Shown here in pieces: positions 47,854-62,067 of a stretch of DNA of 64,000 bases. The notes beneath the pieces were generated by a model. It was not told the DNA's origin, did no database searches, and worked only from the letters and a program-made list of their open reading frames with translations. Made by a program: the position numbers and the translations under genes. The stretch is from Chloroflexota bacterium. Lineage in GTDB: Bacteria; Chloroflexota; Anaerolineae; Anaerolineales; Villigracilaceae. The stretch is from contig JACRLB010000042.1 of NCBI GenBank assembly GCA_016235445.1, positions 1-64,000 of the forward strand, given 5' to 3'. Numbering within the stretch: the first letter of the stretch is position 1; each line of letters starts with the position of its first letter.

Positions 47854-48186
47854 TCAATCTATTTTTTTCAAAATATCGGAAGGCGGGCGCGAGAGCGGAC
47901 GGGTCATTGCCGAGAGGCGGGATTCGTAAAAGGTTTCGTCTGCGTTCGAAAATCTCGAGGGTGTAAATAATTTTCGTTCCACGAGGATGTCTGCGATTCT
48001 TTTGGCCTGGTCTCGTGTGAATTCAAGTTTTTCCGCGAACTCCGTCAGGCTGAAACGGCCCAGGCGGATGACGGCATTCAACGCCGAACGAAGCGGCTCG
48101 GAAAACAGGACAACATCCGAGGGACGAATATCCTCTTCCCGCGCTTCAAGTTCTTTAAGGGCTGTCTGAAAAAGTGATTCGCTCAT
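47854..48186 (-). CDS. Small probable winged-helix partner of a MinD-like ATPase
   Basis: 110 residues. The middle (RSALNAVIRLGRFSLTEFAEKLEFTRDQAKRIADILVERKLF) has the helix spacing of a winged-helix unit, with a charged N-terminus and a basic C-terminal tail. It lies 25 bases downstream of a MinD/ParA-like gene on the same strand and has an AAGGAG site. A similar arrangement occurs beside the second MinD-like gene (53272-53646). Family not recognised; an adaptor or DNA-binding role is a guess from context. Confidence 0.65.
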   Translation of the reverse strand: MSESLFQTALKELEAREEDIRPSDVVLFSEPLRSALNAVIRLGRFSLTEFAEKLEFTRDQAKRIADILVERKLFTPSRFSNADETFYESRLSAMTRPLSRPPSDILKKID

Positions 48187-48211
48187 GGCTTACTCCTTGC
48201 CAGAGACTGCC

Positions 48212-48967
48212 TCAGTCTTTGAGTTGATCCACAAGACTGCGCAAGCCCTTCGTCACCGGGTGATCGGGGAATCGGATCGAGAAAATACCTGAACTCGCAA
48301 GGGACATCATTTCATCAGAGTGGGGGAGCACCGCGCCCACTTTGGCTCCGTAGGTTTGTTCCACACGGGCGCGCACATCTTCAGGGTCGAGGGTGTTGGG
48401 AACTTTGTTCACCAGCATCAGCATCTTCGGCACGTCCAATTTTTTGGCAACATCCACGGTTACGGCTGTGCCCTGATAATCCTGTGAATCCGGGCGCAGG
48501 ATGATGACCAGCGCATTGGAGATGGCAATGGAAAGCAGGGTTTCTTCATTTAGACCAGGGTGGGTATCGATCAAAAGATAATCGAGTTTCAGTTTTTCCA
48601 CCACATCGCGGAAGCCGTCGTTGAGCAGTCCCACGTCATAGCCTTCGCGCAGGATGCGGGCAATTTCGCCTGCCTTGATGCTGGATGGAATCAGGAAGAC
48701 CTGTCCCTTAATCTCGCCGCCAATGTGGCCTGTCACATCATGGGCGGCGTCTTCGATGCCGCATTTGCCCCACAAATAATCATTCAGCGAATGAACCATT
48801 TCCGATTCATCGAGATTGAAAAGCACATGAATTCCAGGGGAATTAATATCCGTATCCACCACGCATACGCGTGAACCATCCACAGCCAGAAGCGCGGCAA
48901 TGTTTGCTGTGGTGTTTGATTTTCCCGTACCGCCGCGAAAAGAGTGAATCGAAATGATTTTGGACAT
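48212..48967 (-). CDS. MinD/ParA-like ATPase, copy 1
   Basis: 251-residue deviant-Walker ATPase. The P-loop SFRGGTGKSNTTAN carries Arg where the signature lysine of KGGxGK[ST] normally stands. VVDTDINSPGIHVLF (A' motif), LIDTHPGLNEETLLS (Walker B region) and LRPDSQDYQGTAVTVDVA follow. No C-terminal amphipathic MinD helix is seen. The product is closely related to the protein at 52249-53034. Start 48967 has GGAGAG upstream. It probably switches or positions a partner by ATP-dependent dimerisation; the cargo is unknown. Confidence 0.88.
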   Translation of the reverse strand: MSKIISIHSFRGGTGKSNTTANIAALLAVDGSRVCVVDTDINSPGIHVLFNLDESEMVHSLNDYLWGKCGIEDAAHDVTGHIGGEIKGQVFLIPSSIKAGEIARILREGYDVGLLNDGFRDVVEKLKLDYLLIDTHPGLNEETLLSIAISNALVIILRPDSQDYQGTAVTVDVAKKLDVPKMLMLVNKVPNTLDPEDVRARVEQTYGAKVGAVLPHSDEMMSLASSGIFSIRFPDHPVTKGLRSLVDQLKD

Positions 48968-49186
48968 CTTCTCTCCAGAGTTTTTTAATTTCGTAACGAT
49001 GGCTGACTCCACTGCAAAAAGGTCTTGCGTTTTTGAACTTCCTTCGTGGTTAAAAAAGGTTTTGCAGTGGCATCATAGCTTTTCCAGGATTATAGCCCAT
49101 CTAATTTGAAAGTCAATCACCCCTGATGTATGTTATATTCGATTGAAATTATCAACCCTTTTTCGTCATTATCAACCACAAACTAT
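48968..49186. promoter_or_regulatory. Divergent control region between MinD-like gene and ECF sigma gene
   Basis: An 11-bp perfect inverted repeat, CCACTGCAAAA (49009-49019) and TTTTGCAGTGG (49060-49070), lies near the MinD-like side. AT-rich sequence with TTATATT near 49133-49139 lies on the sigma side. No convincing -35/-10 pair is seen, which would fit control of the sigma gene by a non-housekeeping sigma. Confidence 0.4.
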
Positions 49187-49741
49187 ATGGAAAACACATT
49201 CAATCCAACCCTTCCAGACTCCACCGACGAACTCCTGATCCAGAATTTCAAAGATGGCCGCAAAGACGCATTCGACCTGCTCTACTACCGCCATCTTCCA
49301 AAAGTATACAAAAGGGTTCGTTACGTTATCCCTGAAAACGATGTGGAAGATGTGACCCAGGAAATCTTTATCGCGGCATTGAACTCCCTTTCGTCTTTTC
49401 GAGGCGACTCCAAATTCAGCACCTGGCTGCGCACTTTAACGAACTACAAAGTAGCCGAGTTTTACAGAAAGCGCAGCCGCAAACAGGAGCCGCCGCTTTC
49501 CCCGCTTTCGGACGCCGCCGCTTACACAACTGACAGCGCCGCCAAAACCATGGAGGAAAGAGTCTACCTTCAACGCGCGCTCCAAAACCTGCCCGAAAAT
49601 TACAAAGAAATCATCCTGCTTCGTTTTGCAGAAGACCTTCAATTCAATGAGATCGCCGAACTGACCAGCCAGAATCTTGAAGCCACAAAATCCCTTTTTC
49701 GCAGAGCCATTGCCGCGCTACGCACTCACCTGGAAAAATAA
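49187..49741 (+). CDS. ECF-type RNA polymerase sigma factor
   Basis: 184 residues with sigma region 2 (AFDLLYYRHLPKVYKRVRYVIP, then DVEDVTQEIFIAALNSLSSFRGDSKFSTWLRTL in overlapping segments) and region 4 (LPENYKEIILLRFAEDLQFNEIAELTS...ATKSLFRRAIAAL), joined by a short linker and without region 3, as in group 4 sigmas. The next gene, one base downstream, is a membrane protein of anti-sigma shape, followed by a PrsW-family protease. The start is taken at MENTFNP; an upstream in-frame ATG at 49130 is possible. Confidence 0.9.
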   Translation: MENTFNPTLPDSTDELLIQNFKDGRKDAFDLLYYRHLPKVYKRVRYVIPENDVEDVTQEIFIAALNSLSSFRGDSKFSTWLRTLTNYKVAEFYRKRSRKQEPPLSPLSDAAAYTTDSAAKTMEERVYLQRALQNLPENYKEIILLRFAEDLQFNEIAELTSQNLEATKSLFRRAIAALRTHLEK

Positions 49742-49742
49742 A

Positions 49743-50210
49743 ATGGATCAAACAAACACACCTCTCCATTCACAACAAGATGACCAACTGGCCGACTTTG
49801 CCGACCAGGTATTAAAAGGAAAGATGAAGTACCCCGCCTCTCCCCCGACCGATACCCTGCCCGGCCTCGAAGAAACGATTCTACGCCTGAGCAGTTCCTT
49901 CCCCCCCAACCCATTGGACGATGCCGCCGTCAAACAAATGCACGTGCGGCTCAAAGCCCGCATCCGCCGTGAAGAGCAGAGCGCCAAACCCTCCTTCTGG
50001 AAGAAGTGGTTTGGCAGAGATGTTTCTCCCCAGCTTGGGCTGGCGTTTGCCGTTCTTGCCATATTGGTTGTGGTGGTTATCAGCGCCCCGTCATTGACAA
50101 CCTCCGGCTCATCCACCGCTGGAACCGCATCTGCGCCGGTGAATATTTTTATCGCAGGTGGTTTGCTGTTGATGGTAGCCATCGCATTTTGGGTATCGCG
50201 CAGGAAATAA
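49743..50210 (+). CDS. Two-TM membrane protein, candidate anti-sigma factor
   Basis: 155 residues. The cytoplasmic N-terminal part of about 95 residues (DDQLADFADQVLKGKM, helical LDDAAVKQMHVRLKARIRRE) resembles the sigma-binding region of transmembrane anti-sigma factors. It is followed by a helix near 98-118, a short Ser/Thr/Ala loop outside, and a second helix near 133-151 ending in RRK. It lacks the HxxxCxxC zinc motif of ZAS factors. Position, one base after the sigma gene and before prsW, is the main support. Confidence 0.7.
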   Translation: MDQTNTPLHSQQDDQLADFADQVLKGKMKYPASPPTDTLPGLEETILRLSSSFPPNPLDDAAVKQMHVRLKARIRREEQSAKPSFWKKWFGRDVSPQLGLAFAVLAILVVVVISAPSLTTSGSSTAGTASAPVNIFIAGGLLLMVAIAFWVSRRK

Positions 50211-50280
50211 CCCCTGTTCTTCGATAAACCCCTCGCGGCGTCACCGTTTTTGTTTCCTTGCAGGGCCTATCCAGTTACGG

Positions 50281-50286
50281 TATTAT
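50281..50286 (+). promoter_or_regulatory. -10 box for a leaderless PrsW-like gene
   Basis: TATTAT ends six bases before the ATG at 50293. It suggests the protease and cNMP genes have their own start besides read-through from the sigma operon. Confidence 0.45.
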
Positions 50287-50292
50287 TCCTGC

Positions 50293-51396
50293 ATGGTAGT
50301 CTTGATTGCGCTCGCCATTGCTTTTTTCGTCCCCGTTTTATTCCTGTACTATTTAAATAAATTTGACTTGTACAAAACAGGCCAGTTGAAGGGGAACATT
50401 GCCACCCTCGGTTGGGGACTAATTGCGTACATGCTTGCGGCACAGATCAACCCAGCCATGGTCAACACAGGCTGGGTCACATGGGACCAGGTCACCCGCA
50501 TCACCGCCCCGATTATCGAAGAAACCCTCAAAGCCCTTATCCTCATTTACCTCGTCCAGCGCGCAGACTTTAACTACGTGGTGGATGGCGCGCTGTATGG
50601 CTTCGGCGCGGGGATCGGTTTTGCAATCATCGAGAATATCGAATATGTGACTGGCAACCCCGAAATTGCGTTGACGGTTGCAATTGCGCGCGTGTTTTCC
50701 ACCAACCTCGTCCACGCTACGGCAAGCGGGTTGATTGGCACAGCGCTGGCGTATCGCCGGGGCGATTCCACTTGGCGGGGCTGGCTGGCCATAGCGTTTG
50801 GGTATGTCTTTTCCATGTCGATTCACATGATCTTTAATACCATGGTGAGCGCCGGGGCTTTTCTTATTGTCGCGGTCATTTTTGGGTTGACGGGCATGGC
50901 GTCGATCTGGGTTGTGATCAAACGCGGCTTGAATATTCAAAAGGAATGGGTGGGGGAAAAGCTGGGCATGGAAGACCGTGTCACAAAGGAAGAGACGAAG
51001 GCTGTTAAAAAAATCGAGACTTTGGATGAGTTGTTAAAGCCGGTTGCAAAACAATTCGGTGAAGCAAAGGTCCCTGTAGTGAGGGAGATGATCCTCAAGC
51101 AGGCGGAGATTGGGATCAAGCGAAAATTGATCGAGTCGACGCCGAGCGACAGCAAGCGCAGGGAAATCGAATCGATCATCCAACAGCTTGCAAAAGATAT
51201 GGAACTCCTGCGAAAGCAAGCGGGCTTTTATTGTATGATGTTTGTGCGGGCTGTCTATCTCGACCAGGATGGAAAGGTTTGGGGGGCGATCCATGCACGG
51301 GTGACAGAATCAAGCACAGGTCAAAAGGGAGGCGGGTTGTGGGAGCGAGTCAATGAACGGGTGAAGCAATCCCCGTCACAGGATGATACGTCATGA
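50293..51396 (+). CDS. PrsW-family intramembrane protease with C-terminal helical domain
   Basis: 367 residues. Residues 1-215 hold about eight membrane helices with the PrsW motifs: the EE pair in APIIEETLKALIL, FGAGIGFAIIENIEY, and the histidines in VHATASG and SIHMIFN that would bind metal. In Bacillus, PrsW cuts the anti-sigma factor RsiW, and here the gene follows an ECF sigma/anti-sigma pair. A cytoplasmic C-terminal region of about 150 residues, mostly charged helix, is not part of normal PrsW and may receive a signal. It overlaps the cNMP-binding gene by ATGA. Confidence 0.85.
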   Translation: MVVLIALAIAFFVPVLFLYYLNKFDLYKTGQLKGNIATLGWGLIAYMLAAQINPAMVNTGWVTWDQVTRITAPIIEETLKALILIYLVQRADFNYVVDGALYGFGAGIGFAIIENIEYVTGNPEIALTVAIARVFSTNLVHATASGLIGTALAYRRGDSTWRGWLAIAFGYVFSMSIHMIFNTMVSAGAFLIVAVIFGLTGMASIWVVIKRGLNIQKEWVGEKLGMEDRVTKEETKAVKKIETLDELLKPVAKQFGEAKVPVVREMILKQAEIGIKRKLIESTPSDSKRREIESIIQQLAKDMELLRKQAGFYCMMFVRAVYLDQDGKVWGAIHARVTESSTGQKGGGLWERVNERVKQSPSQDDTS

Positions 51397-52127
51397 AGAG
51401 CGATATTCTTAATCAATTACAGAAGACAAGCATGTTCATGAATCTTTCAGAGGAGGCGCTGGCGGATCTTGCGGTTAAGGCTTCCACCCGTACATTGGAA
51501 AAGGATGAGGTTCTGATGCGCAAAGGGGAGCGGGGCGATTCGCTCTTTCTGATTCATGATGGCTGGGTGAAGATCGTGACGGAAGATTCAAAAGGCGATG
51601 AGTTGATCATCAATAAATGTGGGCCGGGCGAAACCATCGGTGAAATGTCTTTGTTGGATGGCAGTCCGCGCTCGGCGACGGTTATCGCATTAACCGCTTC
51701 TGAAGTATTTGAATTGAAGCAGGATGTGTTCGAGGAAATTCTCGACCAGCGTACGGATGTTTCGCTGGCGATTATTCGCAGTTATTCGGAGCGGCTTCGT
51801 TTTGCCACAACGTATATCGAGAAGGCCATTGACTGGTCGCAAAAGACTGCCGAAGGCGATTACTCATTTGTGGAGCAGACTCAGCCGTTGATGAATGACT
51901 CGGCTTCAAACGATGATAAAGCCGCGCAGTTGCTCTCCACTTTTTTTACAATGGTTCGCAGGGTGAAGGAACGCGAAGATGGTTTGAAACAGCAGTTGGA
52001 AAAATTGACGATTGAGATCGACCAGGCGCGCCGCAAGCAGGAGTTCGAAGAGATCACGGGCACGGAATTTTATGCAAACCTGAAAGAGCAGGCCAAAACT
52101 CTGCGCCAGAAACGCGCGCAGGGATGA
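51393..52127 (+). CDS. Cyclic-nucleotide-binding protein with coiled-coil tail, no DNA-binding domain
   Basis: 244 residues. The Crp-type beta-roll spans about 15-130 (LMRKGERGDSLFLIHDGWVKI and the phosphate-binding cassette GETIGEMSLLDGSPRSATV, with the Glu and Arg that bind the cyclic phosphate). Instead of an HTH domain there is a long coiled coil (KEREDGLKQQLEKLTIEIDQARR) ending in EITGTEFYANLKEQA. This tail is shared with the GAF protein at 61168-62067. It therefore signals by protein contact, not by binding promoters. It is coupled to the PrsW-like gene; an adenylyl cyclase lies 1.5 kb downstream. Confidence 0.88.
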   Translation: MKSDILNQLQKTSMFMNLSEEALADLAVKASTRTLEKDEVLMRKGERGDSLFLIHDGWVKIVTEDSKGDELIINKCGPGETIGEMSLLDGSPRSATVIALTASEVFELKQDVFEEILDQRTDVSLAIIRSYSERLRFATTYIEKAIDWSQKTAEGDYSFVEQTQPLMNDSASNDDKAAQLLSTFFTMVRRVKEREDGLKQQLEKLTIEIDQARRKQEFEEITGTEFYANLKEQAKTLRQKRAQG

Positions 52128-52139
52128 ACTCATAAAAGA

Positions 52140-52216
52140 TTTCACCACTGAGCACACAGAGGTCACAGAGAAGACCTTTAAAAACCTCAGTGAACTCCGT
52201 GATCTCTGTGGTAAAA
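52140..52216. repeat. Imperfect palindrome of CACAGAGGT-type units
   Basis: TTCACCACTGAGCACACAGAG...faces CTCCGTGATCTCTGTGGTAAAAG. Left-arm units CACAGAGGT and CACAGAGAA are nine bases apart, as in the related element at 26910-26992. Confidence 0.75.
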
Positions 52217-52248
52217 GAATCTGTCGAATTTAAAAATTTGGAGGCATG

Positions 52249-53034
52249 ATGAATAAAGGCAAAATCGTTTCCATCCATTCGTTTCGCGGCGGGACGGGCA
52301 AATCGAACACGACCGCCAACCTGGCGGCGCAGGTTGCCCTGGCGGGCAAACGCGTGGGCGTGGTGGATACGGATATTCAATCCCCTGGCATTCACGTTCT
52401 GTTTGGCCTCGATGAAAATAAAATGGGCAAGACCATGAATGATTTTCTGCATGGCAAAGCCACCATCCGCGAGATTGGTTTTTCAGTGGGCGAAAACGCT
52501 GTCGGCGGGGAGGGACGCGCAAAACTGGCGGGGCAGAATCTCTGGCTTTTTCCATCCAGCATTCGCGGGCGTGAGATCAGCCAAATCTTGAAGGAAGGAA
52601 TTGACTTTAATCTCCTGAATGAAGGCCTGCAAAAAACGATCACAGAGTTTGACCTGGATTATCTTTTTATAGATACGCACCCCGGCTTGAATGAAGAGAC
52701 TTTGCTTTCGATTGCCACCTCGGATATTTTGATCATCATCCTGCGCCCGGATAACCAGGATTTGCAAGGCACGTCGGTGACGGTGGATATTGCCCGCAGT
52801 TTGGATGTGCCGAATCTTTTGTTGATGGTGAACAAAGCCCTGCCCAAATATGATTTTGTGGAACTCAAAAAAGAGATCGAAGATAAATTCAACGCTCCCG
52901 TTACCGGTGTTCTTCCGCTCTCTTTCGACCTGGCGGATAATGCCAGCAACGATCTTTTCTCACTCCGCTATCCAGACCATGAATGGTCGAAGGCCTTGCG
53001 CGGCGTGGCGGATGCCGTTCTTGCGACAGGTTAG
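52249..53034 (+). CDS. MinD/ParA-like ATPase, copy 2
   Basis: 261 residues, clearly paralogous to the protein at 48212-48967 across its whole length: IVSIHSFRGGTGKSNTTANLA (the same Arg in the deviant Walker A), VVDTDIQSPGIHVLFGLDE, SSIRGREISQILKEG, FIDTHPGLNEETLLS and LRPDNQDLQGTSVTVDIARSLDVP. ATG 52249 is preferred to 52246 because GGAGG then has normal spacing. It is followed by a cysteine-rich small gene and a 124-residue gene on the same strand. ATP-dependent switching of a partner is likely; the cargo is not known. Confidence 0.88.
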   Translation: MNKGKIVSIHSFRGGTGKSNTTANLAAQVALAGKRVGVVDTDIQSPGIHVLFGLDENKMGKTMNDFLHGKATIREIGFSVGENAVGGEGRAKLAGQNLWLFPSSIRGREISQILKEGIDFNLLNEGLQKTITEFDLDYLFIDTHPGLNEETLLSIATSDILIIILRPDNQDLQGTSVTVDIARSLDVPNLLLMVNKALPKYDFVELKKEIEDKFNAPVTGVLPLSFDLADNASNDLFSLRYPDHEWSKALRGVADAVLATG

Positions 53035-53043
53035 GAGGATGCG

Positions 53044-53256
53044 ATGAAATGCTGGCATTGTGAAGAAGCCGCGCGCGCATCGTGCGCTTTCTGCGGGCGT
53101 TTTGTGTGCAAGGATCATGCCGCAACCATGTCCACTTTTATTACGATGTTTGTGGGCGCGAACAACACGCCCAAGGGGCTTGCGGTTGCAAACGTCATCT
53201 GGTGCGGCGAATGTGAACCCCAGCCGGAACCGATCAGTATGCCCGAACTTTATTGA
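53044..53256 (+). CDS. Small zinc-binding (B-box-like) protein
   Basis: 70 residues opening CWHCEEAARASCAFCGRFVCKDHA, a Cys/His series spaced like a B-box or double zinc knuckle, with a final CGEC pair near residue 57. It starts nine bases after the MinD-like stop with AGGAGG upstream, so it is in the same operon. Probably an adaptor that binds protein; the family name is not certain. Confidence 0.7.
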   Translation: MKCWHCEEAARASCAFCGRFVCKDHAATMSTFITMFVGANNTPKGLAVANVIWCGECEPQPEPISMPELY

Positions 53257-53271
53257 GATGGAGAGGTCGCC

Positions 53272-53646
53272 ATGCCTGGAGTCTTCGATCGGTTAAATAA
53301 AGAGATAAAAGATAAACAGCAGGAGGGCGGTATTACGCCACTCGATCTTGCTGACCTGCCGCCTGCCTTGCGAAAGATCATGCGCTTGATGCTGCGCGAA
53401 TTGCAGATGACCTATCCGCGCTTGTGTGAGGCTGTTGATGAAATGCCCGAACAAGACCGCCTCACCCCTGACGGGTTGGATGATTCTCTTTCAATGTTGA
53501 CTCAACAATTCTGGCTGATTCGAATCGGCGAAGGGGAGAAGGCCATTTACAAAGTGAACCTGCGCCGCAAAGAGGGCAGTAAACTTTCGGCTGGCATCTG
53601 GTCTGCGCTGGATGCGAAATTGAAAGACAGACCCAAAGATAAATGA
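53272..53646 (+). CDS. Small helical protein downstream of the MinD-like ATPase
   Basis: 124 residues. ALRKIMRLMLRELQMTYPRLCEAVDE and DGLDDSLSMLTQQFWLIRIGEG have the spacing of a winged-helix unit (helix, helix, recognition helix, two-strand wing) with a basic tail. The sequence is not alignable by eye with the 110-residue gene beside the first MinD-like ATPase, but size, fold guess and position are alike. It is the last gene of this operon, ending at a perfect terminator. Confidence 0.65.
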   Translation: MPGVFDRLNKEIKDKQQEGGITPLDLADLPPALRKIMRLMLRELQMTYPRLCEAVDEMPEQDRLTPDGLDDSLSMLTQQFWLIRIGEGEKAIYKVNLRRKEGSKLSAGIWSALDAKLKDRPKDK

Positions 53647-53648
53647 AA

Positions 53649-53680
53649 AAACAACGACGGGCGAAAGCCCGTCGTTGTTT
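53649..53680. terminator. Bidirectional terminator
   Basis: AAACAACGACGGGC-GAAA-GCCCGTCGTTGTTT: a perfect 14-bp stem with a GAAA tetraloop, with A-run and T-run on the two sides. It serves both the MinD-like operon and the cyclase gene that converges on it. Confidence 0.92.
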
Positions 53681-55229
53681 AGCTGTCCTTCTTTTGTTCC
53701 ATTAGTTCAAATAACTGCATCGGCTGGCTTTTCCCCTTAAGAGGAACTTCGCCAAGCGGCTTGCATTCATATTTTTCCTGGATCGCCCCCTGCACCCGCT
53801 CTGAAACGATGATCTGGTTCTTTTCAGCGCGGTTCATCAAACGCGCCGCCGTGTTGACCGTATCCCCCAGCACGTTGTACTCCCGCCGCCCACGCGGTTC
53901 GCCGATCTCAGCCACGAAGGCCGGGCCGGAATTAATCCCGATCTGGCAGTAAATATCTGGTTGCACATTCCCAATGGTGGGAGCTTTTTGGTTGATGGTT
54001 TTTATCACTTCGCGAATGGCAAGCGCCGCAGAGGCCGCCCGCAGTTCGTCATTGGTGTGGGCGTTTGGCACACCGAAATAGATGACAATATCGGAACCAG
54101 CCAGATGATAGGTGACCTTTTTCAACACGCCGCCCCGCGATTCCACTGCGGCATTGATGAGCGAAAACGCGCGCGAAAAGTGAAGCGCAAGTTTGGTTTC
54201 TTCACCGGGCAGGGCGCGGTCCGCAGATTCGGGCAGGCCGATGAAGTTGACGAACATGATGGTGGGTTGTGGGAAATCAGGCGGAATTTTCCTATCCGCT
54301 GCGCTTTCCACCAGCAGGGACAGAACAGGTGAGGGAATGTAGCTTGCCATCGGCTCGATGGTGTTGAGTAAGTCCATGATGTTGAGCAGTACTTCGTTCT
54401 TGTCGCGTGTGAGTAAAACATTGGACGCCATGCGCCGTCCCACGGGGGTGATTTCGTACTCTCCGAGTTTGTCGTCGGAAAGATCGTCGATCACCAGGAA
54501 GTATCCCGGGGTACCGTCTTCAAAACGAAAATCAGCCGCGATCCGTTCATACGCTTTTTGAGATAAATTCACGCGTTCATTGCGGCCGTTGCTTTCGGTC
54601 AATTTGGCTTGCTGTACATCTTTGCCCAGTAGAACGTGCTCCATGCGTCTGGGCGTGCCAATATCCGCGGTGAGGAATCTGCCGCTGTGAATCCCGATGC
54701 GCATTTTCAAATTGACAATGCCCGCCGGGGTTTCGATCTCTGCAAATTGTTTCATGGCTCTTTGCATTCGCAGTCCGGCTCGTATGGCGCGGGAGATGTC
54801 GTTGTGCTTTTCAGTCTTTCGGAAGACAACGAGCATGGCGTCGCCGGTGAATTCAACCAGTTCCCCGCCGGACTTGCTGATCACGCCGATCATTTCCGAA
54901 AAATATTTTGTCAGTTGTTTTAGCAGGTTTTCCGCGCCATCGCGCCCCTTGGATGCGTTCGCTTCCATCAGTTTTGTAAAGCCAGCCAGGTCTGTGAACA
55001 TCATCGTCCCATACTGCCATTCGGTTCTCACATCGCCCGGCTTTAGTTTGTTGATCGAAATCTGCCGCGAGGTGTAATCGAGCAATATGCGCTGTAACGT
55101 CCGCAAGTGTTTGTGGACATCGATCATGATTTCCACAGAGGGGTTGCCCCACATGGAGGCATACATCTCTGCAGGGAGCAAATACCGCAAGCGGCTTTCA
55201 ATCGAAGTAAGCGGCGACTCGGGAAGCAT
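53679..55229 (-). CDS. Tandem-domain class III adenylyl/guanylyl cyclase (soluble, sAC-like)
   Basis: 516 residues with two cyclase domains in one chain, about 70-245 and 320-500, and no membrane helix. Domain 1 has both metal-binding Asp residues (MFTDLAGFT; VEFTGDAMLVVF) but lacks the catalytic Asn/Arg pair (LLGKDVQQAKL). Domain 2 lacks the first Asp (MFVNFIGL) but has the Asn and Arg (VLGDTVNTAARLMN). The halves should form one composite active site, as in mammalian C1/C2 cyclases. The expected product is cAMP; the adenine-selecting pair is not fully standard (KKVTYHL; YNVLGD). A -10 box seven bases before ATG suggests a leaderless mRNA. Confidence 0.88.
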   Translation of the reverse strand: MLPESPLTSIESRLRYLLPAEMYASMWGNPSVEIMIDVHKHLRTLQRILLDYTSRQISINKLKPGDVRTEWQYGTMMFTDLAGFTKLMEANASKGRDGAENLLKQLTKYFSEMIGVISKSGGELVEFTGDAMLVVFRKTEKHNDISRAIRAGLRMQRAMKQFAEIETPAGIVNLKMRIGIHSGRFLTADIGTPRRMEHVLLGKDVQQAKLTESNGRNERVNLSQKAYERIAADFRFEDGTPGYFLVIDDLSDDKLGEYEITPVGRRMASNVLLTRDKNEVLLNIMDLLNTIEPMASYIPSPVLSLLVESAADRKIPPDFPQPTIMFVNFIGLPESADRALPGEETKLALHFSRAFSLINAAVESRGGVLKKVTYHLAGSDIVIYFGVPNAHTNDELRAASAALAIREVIKTINQKAPTIGNVQPDIYCQIGINSGPAFVAEIGEPRGRREYNVLGDTVNTAARLMNRAEKNQIIVSERVQGAIQEKYECKPLGEVPLKGKSQPMQLFELMEQKKDS

Positions 55230-56233: not shown

Positions 56234-56632
56234 TCAACTCGCCAGTTTTTTCTCTATAGCGTTTAACCAAATCTCGAAAACACCGACGTAATCTTCGATT
56301 TGATGATAAATTGTCATCGCAATCTTTTCGTTATACGTATGGACTGTCATATTGCGAGCGTCGCACATTTGCAATGCAAGTTTTGAAGTAGCTTCATCAA
56401 ACAAACCAGCCTGCCAGCTTGCGCGCACAACGCCTTTTGGTGAATTAACCGACACTCCTTCAACTTCAGCCAGATAGAGTTGCGCGGTTTTCCATGTCGC
56501 TTCAAAGGTGTATTCGAATCTTTGAATTGTTGCATCCCGTTCAATGAGCGAAAGTTCGGGTTTGTTGGTCAACTCTTGCAAAGTGGACAATGCTTTTCGG
56601 GCAACTTGTGCGCGTTCTTTTATTCTTTCCAT
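56234..56632 (-). CDS. HEPN-like nucleotidyltransferase substrate-binding protein (HI0074 type)
   Basis: 132 residues, all-helical. RFEYTFEATWKTAQLYLAEVEGV and the later NMTVHTYNEKIAMTIYHQI match the HI0074/KNTase C-terminal-like family; the R/NxxxxH-type motif of HEPN toxins appears as RNMTVH. It overlaps the upstream MNT gene by 13 bp. Such pairs act as toxin-antitoxin modules in which the nucleotidyltransferase adenylylates the HEPN partner. Toxin activity here is by analogy. Confidence 0.85.
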   Translation of the reverse strand: MERIKERAQVARKALSTLQELTNKPELSLIERDATIQRFEYTFEATWKTAQLYLAEVEGVSVNSPKGVVRASWQAGLFDEATSKLALQMCDARNMTVHTYNEKIAMTIYHQIEDYVGVFEIWLNAIEKKLAS

Positions 56633-56925
56633 AGAATGCCTTCCCTTTCCACGCGTTGGAGAAAAACATCGTCTGACATGGACAAATCCACCATATCCAC
56701 TTCGCGGAGAATGTTACTTTCATCCAGCTTTTCTTGAATTTCAGAAATGATATGAATTGGCAGAGGTTCGAGCGGCAAAATGGCAACGTCAATATCTGAG
56801 TACAACCGCGCTTTGCCAGTTGCCTGTGAGCCAAATAAATAGACTTTTGCTCGAAAGGCTTTTAATTGTTCAAGCACGATTTCTTTCGTGGCTTCAAGGT
56901 CATGGGTTAAGACAGGAGTAACCAT
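56620..56925 (-). CDS. MNT-type minimal nucleotidyltransferase (antitoxin)
   Basis: 101 residues with the minimal nucleotidyltransferase core: VYLFGSQATGKARLYSDIDVAI (GSx9-11DxD) and the third carboxylate in EVDMVDLS. It is the usual partner of HI0074/HEPN proteins. The overlap with the next gene indicates coupled translation. A TATAAT box seven bases before the ATG implies a leaderless transcript. Confidence 0.88.
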   Translation of the reverse strand: MVTPVLTHDLEATKEIVLEQLKAFRAKVYLFGSQATGKARLYSDIDVAILPLEPLPIHIISEIQEKLDESNILREVDMVDLSMSDDVFLQRVEREGILWKE

Positions 56926-56932
56926 TGGATAT

Positions 56933-56938
56933 ATTATA
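56933..56938 (-). promoter_or_regulatory. -10 box for leaderless MNT gene
   Basis: TATAAT on the minus strand ends seven bases before the ATG at 56925. Confidence 0.5.
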
Positions 56939-56948
56939 CCGAATTAAC

Positions 56949-57022
56949 ACCCTCACCCTGCCCTCTTCCAGCGGGAGAGGGGGAGTCGTCCCGACGAAAA
57001 GCCGTCACAATCGGGGTGAGGT
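56949..57022. repeat. CCTCACCCT...GGGGTGAGG palindrome, subfamily copy 1
   Basis: CCCTCACCCTGCCCT...CAGCGGGAGAGG...AGTCGTCC...AAAAGCCG...AATCGGGGTGAGG. About 74 bp; a sister copy is at 57848-57919, one on each side of the DUF3800 unit. Confidence 0.75.
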
Positions 57023-57049
57023 CGCCCTTCACCCACACTCCCGTTTTTG
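57023..57049. repeat. 27-bp direct repeat, left copy
   Basis: CGCCCTTCACCCACACTCC followed by CGTTTTTG. It is identical to 58042-58068; the two copies bracket the DUF3800 gene and its RNA. Confidence 0.8.
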
Positions 57050-57089
57050 ATTTGGACATATACCTGCAACAGATGTTATAATGCACTTA

Positions 57090-57189
57090 TCAATAAAACG
57101 GTTCGACCGTTTTACCCGCCCCCGACGACAAGGTAGCCACATGAGGCTGTCTTCTCAAGCAAGACTTGAGATAGTCGGGGGTGTTTTAT
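57090..57189 (-). ncRNA. Candidate structured RNA downstream of the DUF3800 gene
   Basis: Begins at the DUF3800 stop codon on the minus strand. The outer stem CCCCCGAC (minus strand of 57174-57181) pairs with GTCGGGGG (57119-57126). Inside are two hairpins: TCTCAAG/CTTGAGA (7 bp) and AGCC/GGCT. Together they give a three-way junction. A terminator hairpin (57095-57113) follows. Structured RNAs associated with DUF3800 genes have been described from comparative work. I infer this is one of that kind or a new one; no covariance test was possible. Confidence 0.55.
57095..57113. terminator. Symmetric terminator hairpin
   Basis: AAAACGGT-TCG-ACCGTTTT: a perfect 8-bp stem with a three-base loop and Ts on either strand. 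On the minus strand it ends the DUF3800-RNA transcript. Confidence 0.75.
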
Positions 57190-57801
57190 TTAGGGCAAAT
57201 TCCACAGGTCAACAAGGCGCGGGGATATGATGTCGAAATGATTGCTTGCTATTCCCATTACATGCAATCGTATTGCGCCAGCAATCATATCTGCCAATTG
57301 CAAGCCATCCTCACGTTTAGAATCTCCGCCAATGATATTTTTGAACGGACGAATACGCTCCCCCCTTTTACTCCGCTCAGAAAACTGAATTCGCAGATGG
57401 CGGCAGAAGGAGGGCGTTGCGCCATCAATGATTAAGACTTCATTTGCAAGATCCAGTTCACTGGCATGCATGGTTAGCCCAATGATCAATTCAACTGTCA
57501 GCGCTTGGGGGTTCAAGGTATTGAAATTCGGTCCGAGTCGCGCTTTATCCGCAGTTACAGCACGGATGCGGAAATCAACAGCCAGCACTTCCTTGAAAAA
57601 GCGATCCTTTTGCAGGGGCTTGGATTGATGATATTTGAATTCAAAATTTGGGGGAACATAGAGCGCTTTTCTAAGTTCCACAAGCGGTTTGAGAGGCGCA
57701 CGTTCGGGCAACTGTACCATTGCAACCACAAAGTGACTGGATGAACTTGCCTGCCCTTCCAACCCCGCATCGCCTGATTCGTCAACAAAGAAGTATTGCA
57801 T
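57190..57801 (-). CDS. DUF3800-domain protein
   Basis: 203 residues. The DUF3800 hallmark FVDESGDAGLEG at the N-terminus, GLTMHASELDLANEVLIIDGATP in the middle and the C-terminal DGLQLADMIAGAI give the spaced acidic residues of an RNase H-like fold. Function is unproven; the family is frequent in defence and mobile-element neighbourhoods. This copy is bracketed by 27-bp direct repeats and paired REP elements and is followed by a structured 3' RNA. A -10 box eight bases before ATG suggests a leaderless mRNA. Confidence 0.88.
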   Translation of the reverse strand: MQYFFVDESGDAGLEGQASSSSHFVVAMVQLPERAPLKPLVELRKALYVPPNFEFKYHQSKPLQKDRFFKEVLAVDFRIRAVTADKARLGPNFNTLNPQALTVELIIGLTMHASELDLANEVLIIDGATPSFCRHLRIQFSERSKRGERIRPFKNIIGGDSKREDGLQLADMIAGAIRLHVMGIASNHFDIISPRLVDLWNLP

Positions 57802-57809
57802 AAGGCGTG

Positions 57810-57815
57810 ATTATA
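57810..57815 (-). promoter_or_regulatory. -10 box for leaderless DUF3800 gene
   Basis: TATAAT on the minus strand, eight bases before the ATG. Confidence 0.45.
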
Positions 57816-57847
57816 CAGCGAAGACTCATTGCTGGAGCCATTCACCC

Positions 57848-57919
57848 TCACCCTGCCCTTTCCCAGCGGGAGAGCGGGAAGTCGTCCTGCCAAAAGCCGA
57901 CTGAATCGGGGTGAGGGAA
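57848..57919. repeat. CCTCACCCT...GGGGTGAGG palindrome, subfamily copy 2
   Basis: Sister of 56949-57022 with the same internal blocks (CAGCGGGAGAG, AGTCGTCC, AAAAGCCG). The stretch 57920-58041 after it contains CGAGCGGAGCGAGTGGTAG and CCGAAGGACAG REP-like bits and no gene. Confidence 0.75.
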
Positions 57920-58041
57920 TTTCTCCCCCAAATCCGACGAGTTGACTGTTGAATCCGCATCCCAAATTTTCGTTTTCGTATTTGGGGGACGCGTACCCGA
58001 GCGGAGCGAGTGGTAGATGTCCGAAGGACAGAAGGGGTCAC

Positions 58042-58068
58042 CGCCCTTCACCCACACTCCCGTTTTTG
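58042..58068. repeat. 27-bp direct repeat, right copy
   Basis: Identical to 57023-57049, 1,019 bp away and in the same orientation. It ends just before the vsr remnant. Confidence 0.8.
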
Positions 58069-58070
58069 TA

Positions 58071-58310
58071 TTATTTTTTGAATTGTCTTTTCAACTTCAC
58101 AACAACTTTTGCTGGATACTTTAACTCGTGCTCCCACACTCGTACAACTTTCCGCCCTTCTTTTTTCAATTCACGAGAGACATATCTATCTCGGTCTTTG
58201 TTTTGCTTTAATTTATTTGCCCAAAACTCCTGGTTATTCTTCGGCATGTTTGAATGTTTGGGGCATCCATGCCAGAAGCGCCCATCGACAAACAAAGCAA
58301 TTTTATGCTT
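58071..58310 (-). pseudogene. 5'-truncated very-short-patch-repair endonuclease (vsr remnant)
   Basis: About 80 codons (KHKIALFVDGRFWHGCPKH onward, then NQEFWANKLKQNKDRDRY and GRKVVRVWEHEL) are the C-terminal half of Vsr, the T:G mismatch nuclease that accompanies cytosine-5 methylases. The FWHGCP histidine block is present, but the N-terminal half with the catalytic Asp is missing, and an in-frame stop lies upstream at 58335-58337. The remnant begins at the end of the HNH gene, so a rearrangement joined them. A short product could start at TTG 58295, but it would lack a key residue. Confidence 0.85.
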
Positions 58311-59070
58311 TGAAGATATTTTTGTTGTGATATTTTAGGAATTTAACTTCTGGCAAAAATCTTGTTGGTGTTTTAACTTCAGCGCCGTCGTACCGAAATA
58401 GAAAATCTTGTAAGGCTGTATCTACTTCATTGCGTTTGATTGATTTTGAGATTTTTATCTTGAAATCAGGCGTAATTGTGAGTAATCCTCTGTCAAATGC
58501 CCTGTCATGAATTGCGTTGAGGCAAAGTCCGTTGCGTGGGTTTACACGATTTGCTTCATCTTTTGACCAAGGAATAATATGGCTTGCGTTTAATAATTCA
58601 GGAACTCCAAGTCCAGTAATGCAGCATTTGAAATCATAAGCCGCAAGCACGGCTTTTCTAAAGAAGCTTTGATTGACGCGAACTTTGACAATCGTTTCAC
58701 GTTCTTTGCCTGATTTGGGTAAATCAAAGATTTCAATATCTGTGACTTCTTCAACTGGCTTGCCCGTCTTTTCAGCTAATAGTCTCTCGCTTTCAAAACT
58801 CAACAAGTCCCAATTATTATTGAATTCCCCCCATACTTCCGCATCCAACTTTGCTCCGTGCGAAGCTCCAGCAATATTTCTTTTTTTCAAAGTTGGGTCA
58901 AGGCTTGCAAGGTTTGCCAATTTCCACGACACGGCAGAAGGTGAGCGCCCCAAAATCTTTGCTAGTAAAATAATTTGAGGGTTGCGGATATGAATTGTGC
59001 CAAAAGGGATTTTGCAATATAGATTGAATGCAAGTATCAATTCTTCACGAGTCCATTTATTTGACGGCAT
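58303..59070 (-). CDS. HNH endonuclease
   Basis: 255 residues. The N-terminal helical domain (WTREELILAFNLYCKIPFG, LGRSPSAVSWKLANLASLDP) resembles a DNA-recognition helix bundle. The C-terminal HNH nuclease has CCITGLGVPELLNASHIIPWS with the histidines in ASHI, then NPRNGLCLNAIHDRAFDRGLL. The HNH_2-type layout is common in stand-alone defence or restriction proteins. AT-richer than flanking housekeeping genes. The start MPSNKWTREE lies ten bases after the VapC stop. The last residues (KFLKYHNKNIFKA) lie at the junction with the vsr remnant, so the C-terminus may be chimeric. Confidence 0.85.
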   Translation of the reverse strand: MPSNKWTREELILAFNLYCKIPFGTIHIRNPQIILLAKILGRSPSAVSWKLANLASLDPTLKKRNIAGASHGAKLDAEVWGEFNNNWDLLSFESERLLAEKTGKPVEEVTDIEIFDLPKSGKERETIVKVRVNQSFFRKAVLAAYDFKCCITGLGVPELLNASHIIPWSKDEANRVNPRNGLCLNAIHDRAFDRGLLTITPDFKIKISKSIKRNEVDTALQDFLFRYDGAEVKTPTRFLPEVKFLKYHNKNIFKA

Positions 59071-59080
59071 GTTTCCCACT

Positions 59081-59491
59081 TTACACCCACGAAATCTTGA
59101 TTTCACCATCCAGCGGCTTGAACTCATTATCCCCTGTGACCAAATCCGCTTTCTTGATTTTTGCCAGCGCGGCGGCAAAAGCATCAGCATAGGACATCTT
59201 GTGCTGTGATTTGAAACGCGCCGCTTCCTGGGTTAATTCCCAATCGGCATTTTCAAATTGAATCCGTAAATCGCGCAGGGATTTCACGCTGGCGTTGGCT
59301 TCCTCTTCCGAGATTTCCCGCGCCAGCGTATACCAAACTTCGCCCACATTGACCACGCTCATGTAAATGGGAATTTGTTCTTCATGCGCTGTGGCAATCA
59401 ACTCTTCCACCTGTTCCCCGGAAGGCTCGTCTTCAAGGTAGGCAATCACCGCCCATGTATCCAACACGTATGCTTTTGCCTTCTTTGCCAT
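59081..59491 (-). CDS. PIN-domain ribonuclease toxin (VapC type)
   Basis: 136 residues with the four PIN acidic positions: YVLDTWAVIAYL (first Asp), NVGEVWYTLA (Glu), MSYADAFAAALA (Asp) and LVTGDNEFKPL (Asp). VapC toxins cleave tRNA or rRNA. The gene starts one base after the antitoxin stop. It is probably autoregulated by the AbrB-type partner. Confidence 0.9.
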   Translation of the reverse strand: MAKKAKAYVLDTWAVIAYLEDEPSGEQVEELIATAHEEQIPIYMSVVNVGEVWYTLAREISEEEANASVKSLRDLRIQFENADWELTQEAARFKSQHKMSYADAFAAALAKIKKADLVTGDNEFKPLDGEIKISWV

Positions 59492-59492
59492 A

Positions 59493-59941: not shown

Positions 59942-61168
59942 CTACTTCCAAATATTACCATACCCGTATTCACCTTCAAGCAACTTCCCTTCAGCGAAGC
60001 GACTGAATCGAAAGGGCGTGATGTCCACGGTTTTGGGCGAGCCATCGTCCTGACGGTTCGTCTGTCGCTCACCGTGACGAAGGATCAACTCCACCAAACT
60101 TGCGCCCGCGGCGGGGGAGGTCTTGAAGCCCGTGCCGCTCAAGCCGCAGGCGAGATAGAAACCGTCGGGGCCTGCCGCGCTGTAGATGGCGCGCTGGTCG
60201 GGGGTGATGCCGTCGCGCCCCACGTGGATGGAGTGCAAGCCGCTTTGCTCGATTTTTGGAATACGCTGAACAAGCGCGTCAATTAATTTTTCAACGAAGG
60301 TGGGCGTGGGCGTTTGGTCTTCGGCATCGGGCGCTTCGCCGCGCAGGCTTTCATCTTCGCCCGCCGCAAGGATCAGCGCGCTGCCCTCGGGGCGGAAGTA
60401 GCAGTTGATGGTATCGTCGATCACCGCGGGGATCTTGCCAAGCGACGGCGGGCGATGTAGGAACGCCACATCGTGAGTCCACGTGACGAGCGGGACTTCG
60501 ACATCGGCGAGTTTTGCGACATGCTTCGCCCACGCTCCTGCCGCGCTGACAATTATGGGCGCCGCAAATTCACCTTGAGTGGTGCTGACGCCTTTTACCG
60601 CACCGCCCGATGTGTGGATGGCGGTCACTTCGCAATTCTGAATCAACGTTGCGCCGTTTCGTTTTGCCGCTTCGATGAACGAGTTGGTGGTGAGGGTCGC
60701 ATCGGCGTAGCCCGAATCAGGTTCGTACGCGGCGAAGTCGAACTGGTCGGTGAGAAAATCAGGGACGAGTTTCTTCACATCGTCCGCCGAGATGACAGAC
60801 GTGTTTATGCCAATGCGCTGTTGGTTGGCGACATTGCCGCGCAGTTTATCTTCATGCTCACGTTTTGCGATTTGCATAAAACCCGTTTGCATGAATCCAC
60901 AACTTGCGCTGAGCGGAGACGAAGTGCCGCCGCCAACTCTTTCCTTCCAATTACTAAAATAATTTTTATAACTGGCGAAGGTCAATTCAGATTCGGCGGC
61001 AAGGTCGTAATGCATACGGACGAGTCCGCTCGAGTGACCTGTCGCGCCTGAAGCTGTAACCTTGCGTTCAAGAATGGCAACTTTCAGTCCGCGCTCGGCG
61101 AGGTGAAAGGCAATGCTTGCGCCCATCACCCCCGCGCCGATGACAATGGCATCAAAAGTTTGCGGCAT
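59942..61168 (-). CDS. FAD-dependent amino-acid/sarcosine oxidase-type oxidoreductase (DAO family)
   Basis: 408 residues. The N-terminal dinucleotide fold AIVIGAGVMGASIAFHLAERGLKVAILER, then ATGHSSGLVRMHYD (FAD contact), VSAAGAWAKHVAKLADV, and the C-terminal YLACGLSGTGFKTSPAAGASLVELIL, which closes over the flavin, place it in the DAO superfamily (sarcosine, D-amino acid, glycine oxidases or dehydrogenases). The substrate is not evident. Its start codon overlaps the stop of the GAF gene by one base (TAATG), so the two are co-translated. Confidence 0.87.
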   Translation of the reverse strand: MPQTFDAIVIGAGVMGASIAFHLAERGLKVAILERKVTASGATGHSSGLVRMHYDLAAESELTFASYKNYFSNWKERVGGGTSSPLSASCGFMQTGFMQIAKREHEDKLRGNVANQQRIGINTSVISADDVKKLVPDFLTDQFDFAAYEPDSGYADATLTTNSFIEAAKRNGATLIQNCEVTAIHTSGGAVKGVSTTQGEFAAPIIVSAAGAWAKHVAKLADVEVPLVTWTHDVAFLHRPPSLGKIPAVIDDTINCYFRPEGSALILAAGEDESLRGEAPDAEDQTPTPTFVEKLIDALVQRIPKIEQSGLHSIHVGRDGITPDQRAIYSAAGPDGFYLACGLSGTGFKTSPAAGASLVELILRHGERQTNRQDDGSPKTVDITPFRFSRFAEGKLLEGEYGYGNIWK

Positions 61169-62067
61169 TATTTTTTCTCATCCCTTGAACGCATTTGATT
61201 TGCTTTATCTTTCAACTCTTTGAAATAGCTTGTCTCTGTAATTTCCGCCACCTGATGGGCGCGGCGGGATTCGTCAATTTCGATTTTTAGTTTGGCAATT
61301 TCCTGCCTCAATGACGCTTCGAGAATGTACCCATCCAATGCGGCGGTGGCAAGCAGAACCAAAGCTTCCAGCGCATCATCATCTGCAAATGGAATGATCT
61401 CCCCCGTCTCAGCATTCTTGGCGTTGATCAGTTGAAGCACGCCGATCACCCGTCCCTCGCTATTTTGAAGCGGAATGGTGAGAAAGGATTTGGAGCGGTA
61501 TTTTGTGCGCGCGTCGAAATTTTTAGTGCCCGAAAAATCAAAGCCATCGGCCTGGTATGCATCGGCAATGTTGATGCGTTTGTGAGTCAAAGCAACCTGT
61601 GAAGCCACATTGGCGCGATTCTCGCTTCCATTGGCATTGTGCAATCGTACCGGGTAAAAAGGAATCTCATTTCCGCTGGTTCCGCCCATGGCCAGATCAA
61701 GCGATGTATTCCGCAGGATCACAAATTTAAGTTCATCGTTTTCAGCGAGGTAAAGCGTGCCCGCATCCGCGTTGGTCACCGCTTGCGCTTCGATCACCAG
61801 GCTTTCGAGCAGGCGGTTGAAATCCTTTTCCGCAGAGAGCGAAACGCCAATGGGAATCACCTTTCGCAAAAGGCGCAACTGATTATCACGAAAAGTAACA
61901 CTGCGGGCCATCGCATCCAGCATTCGAGCCATCTGCCCGAGGTCTCCCGAATCTTTGGCAATGTCGCTCAATAGCTCGGTGGTGTACTCGCCATTTTCCA
62001 CTGCGTTGATGGCATGAATGATTCGTTTAAGCGGAGAGGATGAACTGATAACAGTAAGATTTGGCAT
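61168..62067 (-). CDS. GAF-domain sensor with the shared EIT-type C-terminal tail
   Basis: 299 residues. A helical N-terminal part with HAMP-like character (NAVENGEYTTELLSDIAKDSGDLGQM) precedes a GAF domain at about 85-250 (LVIEAQAVTNADAGTLYLAEND, SFLTIPLQNSEGRVIGVLQLIN). It ends in a coiled coil (IAKLKIEIDESRR) and AEITETSYFKELKDKAN, the same tail as in the cyclic-nucleotide-binding protein at 51393-52127. There is no membrane helix or output domain, so signalling is presumably by protein contact through the tail. Coupled to an FAD oxidoreductase gene. An AGGAAA site precedes the start. Confidence 0.85.
   Translation of the reverse strand: MPNLTVISSSSPLKRIIHAINAVENGEYTTELLSDIAKDSGDLGQMARMLDAMARSVTFRDNQLRLLRKVIPIGVSLSAEKDFNRLLESLVIEAQAVTNADAGTLYLAENDELKFVILRNTSLDLAMGGTSGNEIPFYPVRLHNANGSENRANVASQVALTHKRINIADAYQADGFDFSGTKNFDARTKYRSKSFLTIPLQNSEGRVIGVLQLINAKNAETGEIIPFADDDALEALVLLATAALDGYILEASLRQEIAKLKIEIDESRRAHQVAEITETSYFKELKDKANQMRSRDEKK

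Follow-up and report, generated by a model that had tools for sequence, protein, structure and literature searches.

We analysed a 64,000-nucleotide (nt) stretch of DNA from a Chloroflexota bacterium (assembly GCA_016235445.1, contig JACRLB010000042.1, positions 1 to 64,000, forward strand; hereafter the window) and in particular ten genes at 47854-55229, in which a first-pass annotation made from the sequence alone had proposed a signalling system comprising a nucleotide cyclase, a cyclic nucleoside monophosphate (cNMP) receptor, two MinD-like ATPases and an extracytoplasmic function (ECF) sigma factor controlled by the protease PrsW. All ten open reading frames (ORFs) are present there. Genes for a small protein, sA, and the first ATPase, MinA, lie on the reverse strand; those for the sigma factor, a candidate anti-sigma factor, PrsW, the cNMP receptor, the second ATPase (MinB), a zinc-knuckle-like protein and a second small protein, sB, follow on the forward strand; and the cyclase is again on the reverse strand (Table 1). 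The host genome is 4.13 Mb in 55 contigs, and its nearest named relatives among the matches listed are metagenome-assembled genomes (MAGs) labelled Anaerolineales. The proposed families were borne out by Pfam, namely the ECF sigma factor (Sigma70_r2, 49 bits), PrsW (85.4 bits, cut-off 23.5), cNMP_binding (90.7 bits), two ParA/MinD-type ATPases and a tandem class III cyclase (135.5 bits). The anti-sigma candidate, the zinc protein, sA, sB and the C-terminal tail of the cNMP receptor had no Pfam or NCBIfam family above cut-off. The tight packing described earlier was also apparent, with the PrsW and cNMP genes overlapping by 4 nt and the anti-sigma ATG at 49743 directly following the sigma stop codon. 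Two gene starts need comment: alignment places that of MinA near 48967 rather than at 49012 as first annotated, and the sigma factor, whose longest ORF runs from 49130, probably starts at ATG 49187, given that a conserved promoter-like element occupies 49153-49182.

Table 1. Features of the gene cluster and its surroundings, with positions in the window and the basis of each assignment.
Feature	Position	Strand	Basis
sA, 110-residue predicted winged-helix partner of MinA	47854..48186	-	MarR_2 E=0.18; homologs beside MinA in L035-L038
MinA, MinD-like ATPase, RGGTGKSN P-loop	48212..48967	-	Pfam, NCBIfam, alignment
Sigma70-like promoter for MinA, TTGACT-N16-TATAAT	49089..49116	-	kept in most rows of upstream alignment; by eye
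ECF-like promoter CAACCC-N17-CCACAAA; ATG 34 nt after first base	49153..49182	+	19/22 loci
ECF sigma factor	49187..49741	+	Sigma70_r2, r4_2
Candidate anti-sigma factor: N-terminal part and two-transmembrane hairpin	49743..50210	+	transmembrane prediction; place after sigma
PrsW-family intramembrane protease with cytosolic-looking C-terminal extension	50293..51396	+	PF13367; motifs; hydropathy
cNMP receptor, CRP-like domain, tail at 51951-52112	51393..52127	+	PF00027; tail profile
MinB, second MinD-like ATPase	52246..53034	+	Pfam, NCBIfam, alignment
Zinc-knuckle-like protein, 70 residues, CxxC..CxxC..CxxH..CxxC	53044..53256	+	alignment of 22; profile
sB, 124-residue predicted winged-helix protein	53272..53646	+	locus mapping; fold of natural fusion with relative
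Tandem class III nucleotide cyclase, no transmembrane segment	53679..55229	-	PF00211; active-site motifs; hydropathy
GAF-tail protein, tail at 61183-61335	61168..62067	-	tail profile; GAF by eye, likeness to scanned L049 protein

The sigma factor possesses regions 2 and 4_2 and scores 75.6 against 42.9 bits for TIGR02937, as expected of the ECF class. The candidate anti-sigma protein of the window carries two transmembrane (TM) segments joined by a short loop, as do 17 of the 18 distinct relatives scoring over 40 bits; the remaining one, from L066, is cut short. Anti-sigma factors of the RsiW type combine a zinc anti-sigma (ZAS) domain with one TM segment; the protein encoded here, with two such segments and no Pfam or NCBIfam match above cut-off, is not of that type. 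PrsW belongs to PF13367 and retains the EExxK, FxxxE, H and HxxxN motifs, residues E76, E77, K80, F110, E114, H141, H178 and N182 being invariant in 20 aligned rows, and it falls well short of the PrsW equivalog NF033739 (38.7 against 225 bits). These invariant residues match the motifs given for Bacillus subtilis PrsW in PMC12943098.

Near the sigma start, a block of the form CRRCMC-N17-CNAC was found in 19 of 22 distinct loci (the window and 18 relatives) with sigma genes of at least 150 bits, while shuffled sequences gave an expectation of 0.2 (N17) to 0.8 (N15-18). The pattern was drawn from an alignment holding most of the loci counted; it also occurs in the distant loci L041, L043, L045, L073 and L088, among which L041, L073 and L088 lie outside that alignment. 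An in-frame start codon follows the first base of the block by 32-34 nt in 13 of the 19 loci and by 45-51 nt in the other six, and the shorter distance suggests that the sigma transcript is leaderless in the 13-locus group. The element fits autoregulation by the ECF sigma factor. Searched more widely, the strict pattern matched 36 times across 21 genomes of the family, compared with 7 matches for a reversed control. In the host genome the corresponding counts were 2 and 1, and there was no strict match in G089 or G148, both of which have the cluster. The second match in the host genome (G000:C8:6142, L179) is followed by no gene start and could reflect a small RNA, a decayed gene or chance. 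Among 30 match loci retrieved, L180, L186 and L191 run straight into the sigma gene, L190 lies 5' of another copy of it, and most of the others open no long reading frame. The strict search thus yielded no nameable regulon, and the pattern was rejected as a route to one.

Class III cyclases rely on two metal-binding aspartates together with a transition-state asparagine and arginine. In the tandem protein encoded here these form one composite site, with FTD and TGD contributed by the first domain and VNTAAR by the second. The protein had previously been called an adenylyl cyclase. Adenylyl cyclases recognise the base through a lysine and an aspartate or threonine; the residue that we take to occupy the base-recognition position is glutamate in the window and its close relatives and lysine in several distant clusters, whose cyclases read LLKFAGD and YTVMG at the base-recognition sites, so that adenylyl identity is not established. 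The presumed receptor contains a cNMP domain but no helix-turn-helix family detectable with Pfam or NCBIfam, which sets it apart from CRP/FNR regulators.

A cyclase encoded together with a cNMP domain also recalls Pycsar defence, which pairs a cyclase with a cNMP-gated killing effector, and here the cyclase might trigger an effector protease. In keeping with this, PADLOC models of PycC match the cyclase (up to 96.4 bits) and those of PycTIR match the cNMP domain (58.4 bits). However, these matches cover generic cyclase and cNMP domains, the best PycTIR match being confined to residues 19-142, which hold the cNMP domain. None of the ten proteins showed a TIR domain, the gene order is kept within the window's family, and an ECF sigma factor is included. 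With a PycC-like cyclase but no TIR family, the cluster does not qualify as Pycsar, and because no effector was found we consider a defence function highly improbable.

The two ATPases belong to a family with the P-loop HSFRGGTGKSN. The Walker lysine is invariant in 18 aligned rows, and arginine is nearly invariant at what we take to be the position of the signature lysine of the deviant Walker A motif in MinD and ParA, so this hallmark of MinD is lacking. Nor are they septum-site MinD proteins by score, MinA reaching 52.1 against 212.9 for minD_bact and 84.3 against 201.75 for minD_arch, and MinB 50.7 and 75.6. The MinD/ParA fold itself was recovered in a model of a natural fusion between a MinD-like ATPase and a winged helix (L105; mean predicted local distance difference test score, pLDDT, 85), which in Foldseek matched MinD, FlhG and FleN, with E=2.9e-18 for MinD 1hyq. 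This fold is taken from models of the L105 and L099 fusions, in whose alignments MinA and MinB of the window figure only as rows; in the AlphaFold2 input (A7), rows were picked so that MAFFT set cNMP rows on the cNMP part. The L105 model ends in helices (291-340) followed by strands (344-357) that form a two-strand wing. As for sA and sB, which had been described as small partners of the ATPases, both are present, and they look like winged helices by comparison with the L105 model, in which a relative of theirs is fused to MinD; Pfam returned MarR_2 at E=0.18 for sA and not for sB. The gap preceding MinB (52128-52245) holds by eye an imperfect inverted CACAGAGGTCACAGAG-like repeat, and the corresponding gap in L035 is much shorter. 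Divergent zinc-knuckle proteins also occur in L138, L139, L141 and L142 (G006, G103, G071 and G148) with no MinD in the stretch. Near them lie proteins of 746-1177 residues with cNMP domains, which in L138, L139 and L141 contain an HExxH-like stretch and by eye resemble site-2 proteases, and these large proteins are perhaps another family of cNMP-gated proteases.

Relatives of MinB were present in 21 of 150 genomes of the class Anaerolineae at E<=1e-20. Gene maps were drawn for 23 stretches and 80 named loci with profiles built in this analysis. ORFs came from a simple script, and a gene was counted as present when it passed score thresholds that we had chosen; removal of three duplicates (L060, L068 and L070) left 57 Chloroflexota MinD loci, some of them two per genome (e.g., L042/L043, L050/L056 and L040/L055). 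The named loci are the best 80 of 534 by likeness to MinB, so that close relatives are over-represented and presence fractions are biased upward, while contig ends bias them downward. With this limit, the 57 loci contained a winged helix in 49 cases, the tail in 47, the zinc protein in 45, PrsW in 40, a cNMP gene in 31, the cyclase in 30, and the sigma and anti-sigma genes in 21 each. PrsW and the zinc protein were found together in 39; every one of these also had a winged helix, 36 had a cNMP domain or tail, 25 the cyclase and 21 the sigma factor. Within the window's family, the set recurs in the same order in the five other genomes matched (L035-L039), the cNMP gene being fused to PrsW in L037 and sA not being recognised in L039. 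Elsewhere in the class, in loci from other families (L041, L043-L045, L052 and L053), most of the set (MinD, zinc, sB, PrsW, sigma and mostly cNMP genes) adjoins in differing orders. Within Anaerolineae the genes thus cluster repeatedly rather than being scattered among relatives, the outcome that had been named in advance as speaking against a common system. Recurrence in several families rules out a chance neighbourhood, and the retention of neighbours despite differing order points to function rather than mere inherited adjacency. By gene content, the ten-gene set is a conserved cluster.

In the MinD loci of other genomes, proteins that otherwise have little in common end in the same ~54 residues as the cNMP receptor, with the majority consensus MxxxVxxRExxLxxEVxxLRIEIDExKRxxQVxEITxTxYFxxLxxxAxxLRxR. 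Conserved positions of the tail include I25-D26, E36-I37, an aromatic pair and the terminal arginine (alignment numbering). A Pfam scan of ten proteins, eight of them with the tail, identified CHASE2; dCache with HAMP; Tll0287 with HAMP; 4HB with HAMP and GAF; HAMP with GAF; HisKA with REC; NB-ARC with TPR; and GAF alone. For the eight carriers the scan reported nothing on the tail itself, and output domains of the cyclase, HATPase or MCP-signal kinds were not found. Reading by eye added further carriers from the cyanobacterial sample, among them PAS proteins and a cNMP-tail protein. PMC12889525 reports nitric oxide sensor-like behaviour for Tll0287 domains fused to signalling modules. In the model of the L099 fusion (mean pLDDT 85), a CRP-like domain is followed by helices 166-213 and 216-242, which together span the tail, and then by MinD. 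The CHASE2-like tail protein of L092 (7223-9541) bears at its C-terminus several copies of a short DYxQQLQQKAxxL-like motif that, judged by its sequence, looks like a linear docking motif. The neighbourhood of the cluster also encodes a second tail protein beyond 47854-55229, the GAF-tail protein at 61168-62067. The region between the cyclase and this gene (56234-59723) contains by eye toxin-antitoxin-like pairs of the HEPN/nucleotidyltransferase and PIN/AbrB kinds and HNH and Vsr-like endonucleases. On contig 41 of the same genome (L154), a trio of MFS-like, GNAT-like and HAMP-tail genes occurs with no MinD within the 16 kb read; the same MFS-like, GNAT-like and tail trio adjoins MinD in L143, and MFS-like and tail genes flank MinD in L047 (names by eye throughout).

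The distribution of the tail follows that of the MinD-like ATPase. In the class sample of 150 genomes, MinD was found in 21, the tail in 21 and both in 19 (Fisher p 8e-20); across 350 genomes of the phylum Chloroflexota the counts were 42, 43 and 41 (p 7e-50), and in a class sample of 116 cyanobacterial genomes 46, 48 and 45 (p 2e-27). The Fisher tests treat genomes as independent, without correction for phylogeny, the class and phylum samples share genomes, weak tails (G257, G346 and G500) were counted as positives, and E-value cut-offs were 1e-20 or 1e-45 for MinD and 1e-6 for the tail and zinc protein. Exceptions were few. In the class sample, MinD stood alone in G097 (40% identity) and G104 (87% complete) and the tail alone in G076 (84%) and G147 (72%); in the phylum sample the corresponding genomes were G320 for MinD and G257 (weak) and G423 for the tail, and among cyanobacteria G533 for MinD and G500 (weak), G559 and G572 for the tail. 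Six genomes of the window's family (G130, G214, G229, G253, G350 and G460) lack both, and all 14 cyanobacterial genomes reached through MinD loci have the tail (L128 left out of 15). Contig C1 carries MinD in 14 cyanobacterial genomes and, by hand count, 31 tails; 25 of these are separated from every MinD by >75 kb, and the remaining six, in G489, G515 and G606, are close to one. G027 is a single contig with four tails, two of them at distances of ~1 Mb and at least 1.7 Mb from MinD. Since tails are often far from MinD, linkage does not explain the co-occurrence. A generic coiled-coil or HAMP extension was rejected as a full account of the tail, which a 54-position profile (E<=1e-6) found in 21 of 150 class genomes: it sits on proteins with and without HAMP and follows MinD. 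PrsW-family genes, found in 125 of the 150, were rejected as a co-occurrence marker because they are too common. At the level of genome content, the tail and the MinD-like ATPase therefore go together in both phyla.

Natural fusions connect several of the components. A single ORF joins the cNMP domain to PrsW at four loci (L037, 612 residues; L062, 609; L073, 651; L045, 604); the L068 sequence is identical to the L037 fusion, and the L045 protein lacks the tail, a further separate cNMP gene being present at that locus. In L065 the cNMP domain is joined to the cyclase (780 residues), and in L099 a cNMP-tail protein continues in frame into MinD (506 residues), although a ribosome-site-like stretch precedes the MinD part, so that this may represent two genes without an intervening stop. 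Cyanobacterial loci include winged helices fused behind MinD (L105 and L120) and degenerate P-loops (L095 and L096). In proteins of ~600 residues from L040, L083, L123 and L129, our profiles detect a winged helix together with a cNMP domain (by eye in L040), with Pfam confirming the cNMP domain in L129, and those of L040, L123 and L129 show a degenerate MinD-like part by eye only. The first-pass annotation had suggested a chain running from cAMP through the cNMP-tail protein to PrsW or a MinD-like switch, and on to anti-sigma cleavage and sigma release; the cNMP-PrsW and cNMP-cyclase fusions support its steps from the cyclase through the cNMP protein to PrsW. It had also suggested that the cNMP tail contacts PrsW or MinD; co-occurrence in two phyla favours MinD as the partner and not PrsW, which is joined to the whole cNMP protein.

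Based on these data, it is about an even question whether the cluster constitutes one signalling unit, built on a wider sensor-tail-MinD system and ending in a PrsW/sigma output. In such a unit, the cyclase would set the level of a cyclic nucleotide, to be read by the CRP-like cNMP protein, which would be attached to PrsW on its cytosolic side by binding or by fusion. Its tail, consisting of a coiled coil and a docking helix, would expose or hide the docking helix for MinB, whose ATP state would be read out with the winged-helix and zinc partners. Nucleotide and MinD state together would then set the activity of PrsW, which would cut the two-TM anti-sigma protein in the membrane and free the ECF sigma factor, and the freed sigma factor would activate its own operon through the CAACCC-N17-CVAC promoter. 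More widely, many kinds of sensor would share a tail that engages a MinD-like ATPase of the RGGTGKSN type and its winged-helix partner. We infer the roles of the zinc and winged-helix proteins, the direction of effect and every arrow of this mechanism. Among the individual steps, direct contact between tail and MinD seems likely, cleavage of the two-TM anti-sigma protein by PrsW is equally probable in our view, and we lean towards gating of PrsW by the cyclic nucleotide. That Chloroflexota and cyanobacteria share a class of system with the MinD-like ATPase as common receiver, from which the Chloroflexota branch leads to anti-sigma proteolysis, is a proposition that we would accept or doubt in equal measure.

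Several observations weigh against this reading. The L099 model informs on folds only, and the L099 fusion itself comes from a MAG and has the ribosome-site-like stretch before MinD. The glutamate and asparagine of the window cyclase do not fit the canonical adenylyl pair. The promoter block is missing in three of the 22 sigma loci (L039, L077 and L086), and the zinc protein tracks MinD less tightly than the tail does (zinc 20, MinD 21, both 13 in the 150 class genomes). Of the 39 loci with PrsW and the zinc protein, three are without cNMP or tail, 14 without cyclase and 18 without sigma above thresholds, absences that contig ends may partly account for. Zinc occurs without PrsW in six loci, PrsW without zinc in one and MinD alone in three, and 14 of 43 cyanobacterial loci have neither tail nor winged helix above thresholds in the stretch read.

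The same comparison bears on whether two systems merely share an address, an envelope-responsive sigma/anti-sigma/PrsW module lying beside a separate cNMP-tail-MinD system, with no gating of PrsW by cNMP. PrsW, zinc protein and sigma factor of the Chloroflexota type were found in none of the 43 cyanobacterial MinD loci in the stretches read, and PrsW-family genes are far more widespread in the class than the 21 genomes with MinD. In addition, a gene for a secreted propeller, with PD40 repeats in L035, lies between the anti-sigma and PrsW genes in the same-family loci L035, L036 and L038, where its product could act as an envelope sensor; it is not present at that position in the window. The cNMP-PrsW fusions, the 4-nt overlap of these genes in the window and the cNMP-cyclase fusion argue against such a separation, which we regard as unlikely. 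We favour instead the single unit described above. Since the sigma/PrsW branch is missing from the cyanobacterial loci read, it seems to be an output that one lineage has added to the wider system.

It is also conceivable that the ATPases position the sensor and protease at a pole or membrane patch, the tail being a cargo tag rather than a signal output. The MinD/FlhG/ParA fold is consistent with this, and members of the ParA/MinD family organise many cargos (PMC10241942). On the other hand, the tail of several carriers is the last element of the protein, immediately behind HAMP or GAF and with no other output domain seen, so that a mere tag would leave them without an output, and the winged-helix fusions suggest a regulatory role. 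While neither argument is strong, we consider pure positioning improbable and retain signal output through the MinD-like ATPase as the preferred interpretation.

If correct, this interpretation would add a further mode of signal passing in bacteria, one in which sensors share a MinD-type ATPase, and not a kinase, as their receiver; it would provide an output for cyanobacterial and Chloroflexota sensors that have no recognised output domain, and a concrete example of a second messenger controlling both an ECF sigma factor and a PrsW protease. The first-pass annotation knew of no such pathway, and in our literature search neither the cluster nor the P-loop and tail motifs were found described, which is weak evidence as subscription papers were mostly outside the search. 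The cluster looks like an undescribed signalling system. If the contact is direct, the sensor-tail-MinD route would represent a new kind of signalling; taken by itself, the sigma/PrsW branch would be a further form of regulated intramembrane proteolysis.

Among known systems, Sigma-W/RsiW/PrsW of B. subtilis is similar in its ECF sigma factor, membrane anti-sigma candidate and PrsW with EExxK, FxxxE, H and HxxxN motifs. It differs in that the anti-sigma candidate here forms a two-TM hairpin without a recognised zinc domain, that PrsW, extended by a cytosolic-looking part, is linked to a cNMP receptor, and that MinD-like ATPase, zinc and winged-helix genes belong to the cluster. Second-messenger domains on PrsW have precedents: Zhang et al. 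(2012; PMC3482391) described PrsW fused to cNMP-binding, PilZ, FHA and Zn-ribbon domains as likely signalling versions, and the PrsW-PilZ protein LIC_20173 is known from Leptospira (PMC12943098), but the portions of these papers available to us do not mention a conserved cluster that unites PrsW with a MinD-like ATPase, the tail or a cyclase, and for Zhang et al. the same holds for this ATPase as a receiver. The VMAP/MoxR ternary conflict systems of Kaur et al. (2020; PMC7159879) likewise bring cyclase, peptidase, MinD/ParA and winged-helix domains into one network, and the accessible part of that work describes cyclases with MinD/ParA effector domains predicted to be inactive; here, in contrast, the MinD Walker lysine is invariant in the 18 rows, and none of the ten proteins matched a vWA or MoxR family. 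Neither the tail, nor the ATPase in a receiver role, nor the present cluster appears in that accessible part. Pycsar (PADLOC PycC) shares the class III cyclase and cNMP domain, whereas neither TIR nor another recognised effector was found here and the output is sigma/PrsW. FlhG and FleN are among the nearest solved structures, behind archaeal and Aquifex MinD. In the FleQ-FleN system a MinD-like ATPase acts on transcription control; a FleQ-like protein is not among the ten genes and arginine replaces the signature lysine, and the proposed partner here is a tail common to many sensors.

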